NCBI RefSeq assembly: GCF_018324385.1
Contig: NZ_AP019536.1
Location: 558,001-622,000 of the forward strand
Direction: 5' to 3'
DNA from: Ferrigenium kumadai
GTDB taxonomy: Bacteria > Pseudomonadota > Gammaproteobacteria > Burkholderiales > Gallionellaceae
DNA length: 64,000 bases
The notes beneath the pieces were generated by a model that was not told where the DNA came from, searched no databases, and worked only from the letters and a program-made list of their open reading frames with translations. Of this stretch, positions 32,560 through 36,687 are shown piece after piece (the first letter of the stretch is position 1; each line of letters starts with the position of its first letter). The position numbers were made by a program, and so were the translations under genes.

Positions 32560-33306
32560 GTGCCAGCCCTGAAGATCGCCACCTACAATATCCACAAGGG
32601 CTTTTCCCATTTCAATCGCCGCGTGGTGCTGCACGAACTGCGCGACCGTTTGCACGAGCTGGACGCCGACATCGTGTTCCTGCAAGAGGTGCAGGGCGAG
32701 CATGTGCGCCACCCCGAGCGTTACCATAACTACCCGGACGAGCCGCAGCACGAGTTCATCGCGGGCGAGGTATGGCCGCATCACGCTTATGGCAAGAACG
32801 CGGTGTATCAACTCGGCCACCACGGCAATGCCATCCTCAGCCGTTTCCCCATCCTGTGCTCGGTGAACAAGGACGTCTCCGCGCACCGTTTCGAGAGCCG
32901 CGGCCTGCTGCATTGCGAGGTCGACATCGGCGGGCGTTATCGCGTCCATTGCCTGTGCGTGCACTTCGGCCTGTTCGCCAAGGGGAGGCGCGTGCAGACG
33001 CGCGCGCTGATCGAGCACGTCAAGGAGAATATCCCGGACGGCATGCCGCTGATCGTTGCCGGAGACTTCAACGACTGGAGCAACCAGTCGAGCCGGACCC
33101 TGGCCAGCGAGCTGGGCATGCATGACGTGTTCCAGATGCACGGCGGCAAGCTGGCGCGCAGCTATCCCGCCGCGCTACCCCTGTTCCGCCTTGACCGCAT
33201 CTACGTGCGCGGCTTCGGCGTGCTGCACAGCGATGTGCATTTCGGTGCGGCATGGCAGCGTCTGTCAGACCATGCCGCGCTTTCCGCTCAAGTGAAGAGA
33301 ACATGA
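32560..33306 (+). CDS. Endonuclease/exonuclease/phosphatase family protein
   Basis: 248 aa from a GTG at 32560; the frame upstream lies inside nadA. EEP-fold landmarks: LKIATYNIHKGF (metal Asn), DIVFLQEVQGE (metal Glu), GHHGNAILSRFP, VHFGLF and VAGDFNDWS (catalytic Asp-x-Asn), and the final SDHAAL (general base Asp-His). Members include nucleases and phospholipid or inositol phosphatases. Directly before clsB, with which it overlaps by 4 nt, a lipid-related substrate is conceivable but unproven. Confidence 0.87.
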   Translation: MPALKIATYNIHKGFSHFNRRVVLHELRDRLHELDADIVFLQEVQGEHVRHPERYHNYPDEPQHEFIAGEVWPHHAYGKNAVYQLGHHGNAILSRFPILCSVNKDVSAHRFESRGLLHCEVDIGGRYRVHCLCVHFGLFAKGRRVQTRALIEHVKENIPDGMPLIVAGDFNDWSNQSSRTLASELGMHDVFQMHGGKLARSYPAALPLFRLDRIYVRGFGVLHSDVHFGAAWQRLSDHAALSAQVKRT

Positions 33307-34463
33307 ACGGCATCCTCCAGATTGCCGGAAACAATCTGATGCTGCTGCAGAGCGGATCGGCCTATTTCCCGCAGTTGTGCGCCGATATCGATGCCGCGCA
33401 CCATTCCATCTACCTGGAAACGTACATCTTTGCCGCCGACGAGACCGGTCATATGGTCTCGGCGGCGCTGCGCCGCGCTGCCGCGCGCGGGGTTACGGTG
33501 CGCCTGATGCTGGATGGTTTCGGGTCGGCGGAATTGCCCCAGCGATGGGTGGATGACCTGCGCAGTGCGGGCGTCGAGGTGCAGTGGTTCCGCCGCAAGA
33601 TATCTCCGCTGACTTTGCGCCGCAGCCGCCTGCGACGCCTGCACCGCAAGCTGGTGGTGATAGACGGGGAGATCGCCTTCGTGGGCGGAATCAACATCAC
33701 CGACGATATCCCGCAGCGCCGTGGTTTGGCTGCGCCGCGGCTGGATTATGCGGTGCGCCTGAAGGGAGCCCTGACGGGCGAGATCCACGCGGTGATGAGG
33801 CATCTGTGGGGCATGGTGTCGTGGGCCAATGTCCACCACCATAGCAGGCGCATCCACTGGAGGCTGAGAGAAGCGAAGAGGCCGCAGGCCGCAGGTGACG
33901 TCGCGCTGGTGCTGCGCGACAATCTGCGCCACCGCCGCGATATCGAGCGCGCCTACCTCAAGGCGATCGCCACGGCGCAACACGAGATTATCATCGCCAA
34001 CGCCTATTTCCTGCCCGGCCGCGTGTTCCGTCGCGCGCTGAAACTGGCCGTTCAACGCGGGGTGCGCGTTGTGCTGCTGTTGCAGGGGAAGGTGGAGTAC
34101 CGCCTGCAACACTATGCGACGCACGCGCTGTATGAGGAGTTGCTGGGGGCAGGCATCGAGATCTACGAATACCTCCCCAGCTATCTGCACGCCAAGGTGG
34201 CCGTGGTCGATGGGCAGTGGGCGACGGTGGGTTCCTCCAACATCGATCCGTTCAGTCTGCTGCTGGCACGCGAGGCCAACCTGGTGGTGCGCGATGCCGC
34301 CTTCGCCGGAGAAGTGCGCAAGAGCCTGATGGCCGCCCTTGCCAGCGAGGCGCGGCGTGTGGAGTTTGCACGGGAAAGCGTCTTTGTTCATGTGCTGGCG
34401 CGCATGAGCTATGGCATCGTCCGATTCCTGGTGGGGATGCTGGGCATGTCCAGAAGGCAGTGA
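33303..34463 (+). CDS. clsB: Cardiolipin synthase, ClsB type (phospholipase D family)
   Basis: 386 aa from the ATG at 33303 (ATGA overlap with the EEP gene). Two HKD motifs are present: HRKLVVIDGEIAFVGG and HAKVAVVDGQWATVGSSN. There is no N-terminal pair of membrane helices, as in ClsB and unlike ClsA. It joins phospholipid head groups to make cardiolipin at the inner membrane. It ends the long aspS-containing run; two sRNA candidates follow. Confidence 0.9.
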   Translation: MNGILQIAGNNLMLLQSGSAYFPQLCADIDAAHHSIYLETYIFAADETGHMVSAALRRAAARGVTVRLMLDGFGSAELPQRWVDDLRSAGVEVQWFRRKISPLTLRRSRLRRLHRKLVVIDGEIAFVGGINITDDIPQRRGLAAPRLDYAVRLKGALTGEIHAVMRHLWGMVSWANVHHHSRRIHWRLREAKRPQAAGDVALVLRDNLRHRRDIERAYLKAIATAQHEIIIANAYFLPGRVFRRALKLAVQRGVRVVLLLQGKVEYRLQHYATHALYEELLGAGIEIYEYLPSYLHAKVAVVDGQWATVGSSNIDPFSLLLAREANLVVRDAAFAGEVRKSLMAALASEARRVEFARESVFVHVLARMSYGIVRFLVGMLGMSRRQ

Positions 34464-34549
34464 TGCCAGGCACGGGGCGTCGGAGGAATTTCCAGTCTGT
34501 TTCATAATAATGAAACATCGGTTTGGCATGATGCTTGGCGAAACGTGAT

Positions 34550-34634
34550 TGATGGCGATCTTCGGGGCTCCTGCCCCATGCCTTCATGCATTTCCTCTCC
34601 TCATTTTGGGCGTCCTGTGGACGCCCGTTTTTTT
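34550..34634 (+). ncRNA. Candidate small RNA A of a tandem pair
   Basis: From about GCGATC (34555-34560): hairpin GGGGC-TCCT-GCCCC (34564-34577) with an anti-Shine-Dalgarno loop, an unpaired CU-rich stretch (TTTCCTCTCCTC, 34591-34602), and a strong terminator GGGCGTCC/GGACGCCC (34608-34626) with seven T. An upstream block GGCATGATGCTTG (34525-34537) lies 17 nt before GCGATC. Candidate B repeats this order with the same spacing. The 5' end is a guess. Confidence 0.55.
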
Positions 34635-34749
34635 GCCGTCCGGCGTGATCCGTGCCGCCCCTCGTACCGTGTGGGCCGATCTTCTGCCGGATACAATTGT
34701 TAACAAAAATAAAATATTTGTCCGGCAGATGCTTGTTACAGTGTAAGCG

Positions 34750-34829
34750 AAAGCGATCGCGGGACTTCCCGCTCTTCCTTTCATGTTTCTCATCCTCTTT
34801 CGGGCATCCTGTGGGTGCCCGTTTTTTTT
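34750..34829 (+). ncRNA. Candidate small RNA B of a tandem pair
   Basis: From about GCGATC (34753-34758): hairpin GCGGG-ACTT-CCCGC (34759-34772), a CU-rich unpaired stretch (TTCCTTTC, CATCCTCTTT), and terminator GGGCATCC/GGGTGCCC (34802-34820) with eight T. The upstream block GGCAGATGCTTG (34724-34735) again lies 17 nt before GCGATC. The stems differ in sequence from A while keeping pairing, which supports structure. An AT-rich stretch (34694-34719) precedes it. Confidence 0.55.
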
Positions 34830-34855
34830 GCCGGTTTCATCAAGGTGTGCGCGGC

Positions 34856-34861
34856 TATAAT
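34856..34861 (+). promoter_or_regulatory. Probable -10 box of the Atm1-type exporter gene
   Basis: TATAAT followed by TTGCACC, 29 bp before the start codon. The -35 is weak (GTTTCA at 16 bp). Confidence 0.45.
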
Positions 34862-34890
34862 TTGCACCCTGTCATTCTCACCGCTCCGAC

Positions 34891-36687
34891 ATGCGACCAT
34901 CCTCATCCTCAAGCGAGCACGCCGCCAACCGTGCCGACTGGCAGACCATCCGTTCCCTGTTGCCCTACCTGTGGGAGTTCAAGTGGCGCGTTGTGATCGC
35001 GCTGAGCCTGCTGGTGGTGTCCAAGCTCGCCAACGTGTCGGTACCGCTGGTGCTGAAGGAGATCATCGACTCGCTGGACTCGTCGCATAAGGTGCTGGTG
35101 GTGCCGGTGGCACTGGTCGTCGGCTACGGGGTGCTGCGCCTTTTCAGCACGCTGTTCGGCGAGTTGCGCGATGCAGTGTTCGCCAAGGTGACGCAGCGAG
35201 CGATCCGGCGCGTGGCGCTGCAGGTGTTCGAGCATCTGCACAGTCTCAGCCTGCGTTTCCATCTCGACCGGCAGACCGGGGGGGTGTCACGCGACATCGA
35301 GCGCGGCACGCGCGGCATCGGCTTCCTGCTGAACTTCATGCTGTTCAATATCCTTCCGACCCTGCTTGAGATCGGGCTGGTGGCGGCGATCCTGTTCAGC
35401 AAATACAACGTCTGGTTCGCGGTGATCACCTTCGTCACCCTGATCGTCTACATCGCGTTCACGCTGTTCATCACCGAGTGGCGCATGGTGGTGCGCCGCT
35501 CGATGAACGACCTCGACTCCAAGGCGAACAGCCGCGCCATCGACAGCCTGCTGAACTACGAGACGGTGAAGTACTTCGGCAACGAGCGCTACGAGGCGCG
35601 GCGCTACGACGAGAACATGCAGCGCTGGGAGGTGGCGGCAGTGCGCAATGCCACCTCGCTGGCGTTGCTCAATGCGGGCCAGAGCTTCATCATCGCCATC
35701 GGCATCACTGCGCTGATGCTGCTGGCGGCCGACGAGGTGGTGAAGGGGACAATGACGCTGGGCGACCTGGTGCTGGTCAACGTGTTCATGATCCAGCTCT
35801 ACATGCCGCTGCACTTCCTCGGTTTCGTGTATCGCGAGATCCGCCATGCCCTGGCGGATATGGAAAAGATGTTCGGCCTGCTGCACGAGCACCGCGAGAT
35901 CGCCGACGCCCCCGATGCCCGGATCCTGCAGCCGGACCAGGCCGAGGTGCGCTTCGAGCATGTCGGTTTCGGCTATGGGCCGGACCGCCAGATATTGTTC
36001 GACGTGGATTTTTCGATCCTCGCGGGGCAGACCGTCGCCGTGGTCGGCGCGAGCGGAGCGGGCAAGTCCACGCTGTCGCGCCTGCTGTTCCGCTTTTACG
36101 ATATGCAGCAGGGGCGCATCCTGATCAACGGCCAGGACATCCGCGCGGTGACGCAGGCCAGCCTGCGCGCGGCGATCGGCATCGTGCCGCAGGACACTGT
36201 GCTGTTCAACGACACGATCTACTACAACATCGCCTATGGCCGTCCCGAAGCGACGCGCGCGGAGATCATGGCGGCGGCGCAGGCCGCGCACATCCACGGC
36301 TTCATCGAGTCATTGCCGCAGGGCTATGACAGCATGGTGGGCGAGCGCGGCCTGAAGCTGTCCGGTGGCGAGAAGCAGCGCGTGGCGATTGCGCGTGCCA
36401 TTTTGAAGAACCCGGCGATCCTGATCTTCGACGAGGCGACTTCCGCGCTCGACTCGAAGTCCGAGAAAGCGATACAGGCCGAATTGCACGGCATCGCCCG
36501 GAACCGCACCACACTGATCATCGCGCACCGCCTGTCCACCGTGGTCGAGGCTGACCAGATACTGGTGATGGACAAGGGGCGGATCATCGAACGCGGCACG
36601 CATCGAGAATTGCTTATGCTGAACGGGGTTTACGCGCAGATGTGGAATCTTCAGAAACAAGAGGAGATGAGTGATTCTGTGTATTGA
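34891..36687 (+). CDS. ABC transporter of the Atm1/HMT1 type (half-transporter, TMD-NBD)
   Basis: 598 aa: six membrane helices (about 30-320) fused to an ATPase (about 350-598) with Walker A GASGAGKST, signature LSGGEKQRVAIARAI, Walker B ILIFDEATSALD and the switch His in IIAHRLST. The segment ETVKYFGNERYEARRYDE and the helix LLNAGQSFIIAIG are typical of Atm1-like exporters, which in Novosphingobium and mitochondria move glutathione-linked metals or sulfur species. It would form a homodimer in the inner membrane. No MsbA-partner gene such as lpxK is adjacent, in line with Atm1 rather than MsbA. Confidence 0.9.
   Translation: MRPSSSSSEHAANRADWQTIRSLLPYLWEFKWRVVIALSLLVVSKLANVSVPLVLKEIIDSLDSSHKVLVVPVALVVGYGVLRLFSTLFGELRDAVFAKVTQRAIRRVALQVFEHLHSLSLRFHLDRQTGGVSRDIERGTRGIGFLLNFMLFNILPTLLEIGLVAAILFSKYNVWFAVITFVTLIVYIAFTLFITEWRMVVRRSMNDLDSKANSRAIDSLLNYETVKYFGNERYEARRYDENMQRWEVAAVRNATSLALLNAGQSFIIAIGITALMLLAADEVVKGTMTLGDLVLVNVFMIQLYMPLHFLGFVYREIRHALADMEKMFGLLHEHREIADAPDARILQPDQAEVRFEHVGFGYGPDRQILFDVDFSILAGQTVAVVGASGAGKSTLSRLLFRFYDMQQGRILINGQDIRAVTQASLRAAIGIVPQDTVLFNDTIYYNIAYGRPEATRAEIMAAAQAAHIHGFIESLPQGYDSMVGERGLKLSGGEKQRVAIARAILKNPAILIFDEATSALDSKSEKAIQAELHGIARNRTTLIIAHRLSTVVEADQILVMDKGRIIERGTHRELLMLNGVYAQMWNLQKQEEMSDSVY

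Follow-up and report, generated by a model that had tools for sequence, protein, structure and literature searches.

Between the cardiolipin synthase gene clsB and a gene for an Atm1/MsbA-type ABC exporter, the stretch of DNA analysed here (64 kb, referred to as the window) holds two similar short units. The question they raise is whether these are genes for small RNAs (sRNAs) and, if so, what would switch them on and what they would do. The upstream neighbor, clsB, lies at 33252–34463 (NCBIfam NF008427, 354 bits against a cut-off of 281) and the exporter gene at 34891–36687, both on the forward strand, as are all features given below except one inverted repeat, which is assigned no strand. 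Read directly, the interval from the end of clsB (34463) to the start of the exporter (34891) contains two units that share their orientation and the order of their parts: in unit 1, GGCATGATGCTTG (34525–34537), 17 nt, and GCGATC; in unit 2, GGCAGATGCTTG (34724–34735), 17 nt, and GCGATC. The 17-nt spacing, already pointed out in a sequence-only reading of this DNA, is exact in both, and each unit closes with a poly-U tail of 7–8 T. Identity between the units is 71% from the upstream block to the T-run and 66% when the terminator is excluded. Their alignment without the terminator scores 68.5, against a mean of 30.2 and a maximum of 57.0 in mononucleotide shuffles (0 of 1000 reached it). The sequences make it very probable that both units are real, homologous sRNA genes. 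We further consider it probable that they are paralogous genes of about 95 nt for trans-acting sRNAs of an uncatalogued Gallionellaceae family, with unit 1 induced by PhoB and acting by anti-Shine-Dalgarno (anti-SD) repression and unit 2 a diverged sibling.

The strongest evidence that these are RNA genes comes from covariance models. A first model, R1, contained the window sequences and gave many terminator-driven matches in a genus search; it was consequently rebuilt without them. The second model, R2, was built from five relatives (L002, L128, L129, L131, and L133) and includes no window sequence. Run on the 64-kb window, R2, which is independent of the window in sequence but not in the selection of relatives (these were first picked by a window-containing model), recovers unit 1 with 53.9 bits (E = 1e-10; 34533–34634) and unit 2 with 39.7 bits (E = 2e-7; 34731–34828), and the next match has E = 1. 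Neither the covariation nor the shared promoter boxes are affected by how the relatives were picked. In the alignment of the five relatives, 97.5% of the cells in the four helices are paired, seven pairs are changed on both sides compared with 2.2 in shuffles (0 of 500 reach 7), and pairing falls below 50% in all slid-partner controls. All four helices carry compensatory changes, which reach the three helices 5′ of the terminator; the earlier observation that pairing is kept while the stem sequences differ is thus upheld. Both units match this model of four supported helices, and this recovery by a model made from relatives only, along with their mutual identity, bears out the suggestion that they are tandem sibling sRNA genes.

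The RNA of unit 1, with an inferred 5′ end good to within a few nucleotides, spans 34538–34634, and that of unit 2, also with an inferred 5′ end, 34736–34829. The folds are far more stable than dinucleotide shuffles, with z from −3.7 to −4.4 across the units (about −3.7 for unit 1). In unit 1, an apical hairpin, GGGGC-UCCU-GCCCC (34564–34577), which shows compensatory changes in relatives, carries an anti-SD loop at 34569–34572; the alignment of the lower stem is less sure than that of the apex. It is followed by a second anti-SD element, the single-stranded CU tract UUUCCUCUCCUC (34591–34602; unpaired probability mostly at least 0.9), and by an intrinsic terminator at 34607–34634 (34607–34627 in the terminator scan). 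Unit 2 has the apical hairpin GCGGG-ACUU-CCCGC (34759–34772), the CU tract UUUCUCAUCCUCUU (34786–34799), the 3′ half of which is mostly unpaired, and an intrinsic terminator at 34801–34829 (34801–34821 in the scan). The two terminators form a direct repeat with 87% identity. Both apical loops, like the unit 1 CU tract and the 3′ half of the unit 2 tract, are predicted to be single-stranded. The exposed elements, the unit 1 loop UCCU and the CU tracts, are complementary to Shine-Dalgarno sequences, and UCCU is the loop in four of the five relatives of alignment A4. The earlier description of an anti-SD loop and tract is supported: direct reading finds tandem order and CU tracts in both units and the anti-SD loop motif in unit 1 only, the loop of unit 2 being ACUU.

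Homologues of the units are found in the genus and in a second genus, which goes against the lack of conservation that the sequence-only reading had named as part of its refutation. A DNA similarity search yielded L002 as the sole full-length homologue, its other matches being terminators or another class. Single copies lie downstream of clsB in L128 and L129 (approximately 50–60 bp) and in L131 (approximately 840 bp), L133 is another copy, and clsB itself was located by tblastn in L128, L129/L172, L131/L171, and L170. The homologues L002, L133, and L206 do not adjoin clsB. Searched across the order, R2 found a copy in L206 (54.5 bits), which represents another genus of the same family, and on exporter loci the model found copies directly 5′ of the exporter in L206, L071, and L080 and, weakly, in L139 and L048. 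The exporter gene is present in 58 of 61 genus genomes and at 78 loci in a second collection. Where relatives have clsB and the exporter side by side, most carry neither unit upstream of the exporter, which makes the RNA either dispensable or mobile. The usual state in relatives is a single copy, located close to clsB or immediately 5′ of the exporter gene, a point that the sequence-only reading missed. Copies of the family thus recur at two places, 3′ of clsB and 5′ of the exporter gene, and the window has a unit for each. From the sequences, a plausible view is that the copies beside clsB gave rise to unit 1 and those beside the exporter to unit 2.

The blocks upstream of GCGATC, which had been taken as part of units of about 85 nt, are better understood as promoter sequence (a −10 and a sigma54-like element). 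The RNAs therefore probably start just after the blocks, near 34538 and 34736, which gives a length of about 95 nt. The block of unit 1 (34524–34539) contains a −10 hexamer, CATGAT (34527–34532), and a sigma54-like TGGCAT-N5-TTGG. Upstream of it lies a Pho box, GTTTCATAATAATGAAAC (34499–34516), which the earlier reading overlooked, as it did the sigma54 kinship of the block. To avoid circularity, the box was scored with a matrix, covering the 18 nt of the box and the −10, that had been derived from 27 promoters of pstS genes in the genus. Over both strands of the window (approximately 128,000 positions), the best match is at 34499 with 8.4, the next scores 2.5, and 2 of 300 column-permuted matrices have their best window position at unit 1. 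Unit 1 has the PhoB-type promoter layout, with half-sites 11 nt apart, N10, and a −10 hexamer; the N10 between box and −10 is the same as in pstS promoters. The clsB-linked homologues have a TGTCAT/TGTAAC-type direct repeat with an 11-nt period, ten bases, and then a −10, and the matrix gives 19.3 for L128, 14.8 for L129, 12.2 for L133, 7.9 for L002, and 1.7 for L131. The box of unit 1 is thus degenerate (8.4 compared with 12–19 in the best relatives), with CATGAT as its −10. The host genome has a pstS with a Pho box of its own. Judged by these sequence features, unit 1 would appear to be induced by phosphate starvation. No Pho box was found at unit 2 (matrix score −11.5), and neither the Pho matrix nor the sigma54 pattern reveals a recognizable promoter there. 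A scan for sigma70 promoters found none. An imperfect 20-bp inverted repeat, TCTGCCGGATACAATTGTTA / TAAAATATTTGTCCGGCAGA (34683–34729), lies in AT-rich sequence 5′ of unit 2 and may be an operator.

The alternative that fares best is that both units are sigma54-dependent sRNAs, answering to nitrogen or another activator, with the block as a working −24/−12 promoter and the Pho box incidental. The blocks of units 1 and 2 align with the sigma54 boxes of four exporter-side homologues, which are perfect and in the same place (L071, TGGCATGATGCTTGCA; L206, TGGCACGGGGCTTGCT; L080, TGGCACAGCAATTGCT; L139, TGGCACGATGATTGCT). The block of unit 1 shares TGGCATGATGCTTG with L071, and RpoN, like Hfq, is encoded in the host genome. 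A strict sigma54-plus-TCTCCTCC pattern occurs in 3 of 76 genus genomes and 8 of 399 order genomes (0 in the reversed control), and not all of these matches are established as sRNAs. However, whereas the four homologues have GG and GC at −24/−12 with the fixed spacing, the window units do not: in unit 1 the −12 C is absent (TTGG) and there are two mismatches to TGGCAY-N5-TTGCW, while the block of unit 2, CGGCAGATGCTTGT (34723–34736), has TTGT and a spacer one base shorter than the sigma54-like element. In addition, L002 has TTAC, and the clsB-linked L128, L129, and L131 and the copy L133 have Pho-like boxes and no sigma54 box. We regard sigma54 dependence of both units as unlikely.

These same observations may mean that control of the family has changed between sigma54 and PhoB. 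More specifically, though here we are tentative and lean slightly against it, the family may have been rewired between regulons, with the exporter-side copies under sigma54 and the clsB-side copies under PhoB and sigma70. Unit 1 would then be half-way, its CATGAT having arisen within a former sigma54 −24 element and the −12 having been lost, and the tandem pair would be two branches side by side with different inputs.

Unit 1 might instead be a product of the clsB 3′ UTR, made mainly by read-through and processing, with its terminator serving clsB. No other terminator separates unit 1 from the clsB stop (34463), and several homologues follow clsB directly. However, the gap itself contains the Pho box and −10, and the homologues L002, L133, and L206 lie away from clsB, which leaves this explanation improbable. 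That the units serve only as terminators or as an attenuating leader for the exporter gene, with no role in trans, is very hard to credit: these genomes commonly contain GGGCATCC-type terminators, which gave many low-scoring matches, but compensatory changes occur in the three helices 5′ of the terminator, and the exporter has its own conserved TATAAT (34856–34861), probably its promoter, 3′ of the unit 2 terminator, with GGCTATAAT kept just 5′ of the gene in many relatives, which makes a leader role for the units unlikely.

We return to the reading of the units as paralogous trans-acting sRNAs and to their place among known families. Rfam at gathering thresholds finds no family in the whole window. 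The sequence-only reading compared the units with the tandem pair of Neisseria, NmsRA/NmsRB (also RcoF2/RcoF1 or NgncR_162/163), which acts on target mRNAs by antisense pairing (PMC5362039). Both are tandem siblings with a terminator; the betaproteobacterial NmsR RNAs have two anti-SD motifs (PMC5362039), and of the window units both have a CU tract but unit 1 alone has the loop motif. The NmsR genes are located next to lrp, their promoters are sigma70-like, and they are tied to RelA. Kinship with the pair is not supported: its family model RF02877 (NmsRb) matches neither unit even at E = 10 (34440–34900). The units may nonetheless work in the same way. The alpha-r8/MmgR family (RF00519) and SisA–D of Caulobacter resemble the units in having a weak hairpin, a single-stranded UUUCCUCCCU, a terminator, and multiple copies. 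That family is alphaproteobacterial and lacks a three-helix arm of the units' type; induction of MmgR runs through NtrC (PMC7143759, PMC12559287). RF00519 gives 27.9 bits on unit 1 and 26.0 on L219 against a gathering threshold of 41, and the 10-mer UUUCCUCCCU is not exact in either unit (UUUCCUCUCC in unit 1, UUUCUCAUCC in unit 2). The Betaproteobacteria toxic sRNA/S17/double-hairpin RNAs (RF02278) are likewise multi-copy and CU-rich. They are widespread in Burkholderiales, with predicted or shown pairing to ribosome sites (PMC5688073, PMC11722255). Their sequence differs, with UGUCUCCUCC...GGUGGAUU at the 5′ end, and kinship was dropped as the sequences are plainly different. RF02278 has no match in the host genome at E ≤ 0.01 and reaches the cut-off (50 bits) in none of the searched genus genomes; it is present in other families of the order. 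SorY (RF02651) has a similar hairpin, CU tract, and terminator and matches L206, L216, and L219 weakly; its score on unit 1 is 17.8 bits, the gathering threshold being 111. The units thus resemble known sibling CU-rich sRNAs in mode, fit none of the tested families, and are new as a family.

Several other sRNA candidates were encountered in these genomes. A second anti-SD class, with CUCUCCUCCU and a terminator, is present in the host genome and elsewhere (G000:C1:319594-319704 [L156], L003, L004, L006, L137, L138, L140–L143, L146, L148, L150–L153, L222, and L230), in several genomes just 3′ of a monothiol glutaredoxin gene. It has a TATAGT −10, and TAGGC / ATATAGGC repeats upstream suggest an activator site. 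Another class lies 3′ of fabI-like genes in several genomes (L136, L154, L162, and L165) and has a Pho box of the CAGTCATAAAACTGAAAC type, N10, CATAAT, and a CCCUCCCC loop, features that make it probably a further phosphate-controlled anti-SD sRNA. This class was kept apart because a mixed alignment of 14 sequences lost all helices except the terminator. In three further candidates from other Gallionella genomes (L135/L161, L163, and L168), a CCUCCC loop goes with a Pho-like box. Candidates in which a CU-rich hairpin RNA comes after a sigma54 or near-sigma54 promoter occur in other Gallionellaceae and in other families of Burkholderiales (L130, L132, L213, L216, L219, L253, and L255). Finally, G000:C1:2318339-2318434 (L157) and L238 have a GACATGAAAG-type hairpin, UUUUCUCCUCCC, and a terminator, with no Pho box found.

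By analogy with the known sibling RNAs, the units most likely act in trans as anti-SD RNAs, and we infer from NmsR, S17, and the double-hairpin RNAs that they repress the translation of several mRNAs (PMC5362039, PMC11722255, PMC5688073). In the proposed sequence of events, a shortage of phosphate would lead PhoB to turn on unit 1, whose RNA would probably be held by Hfq at its 3′ poly-U end. Through its UCCU loop and CU tract, this RNA would base-pair with a group of mRNAs at their Shine-Dalgarno regions, blocking ribosome binding and promoting mRNA decay. Since its loop differs and it has no Pho box, unit 2 would probably have a different or weaker input and partly different targets. We put forward no target, because an anti-SD motif alone fits most ribosome-binding sites. 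In the open-license full-text literature, the sRNAs of neutrophilic iron-oxidizing Gallionellaceae look almost unstudied. The units would add to this group an sRNA family that is supported by covariation and has a predicted phosphate input, and the family may be a case in which the regulon changed while the fold was retained.
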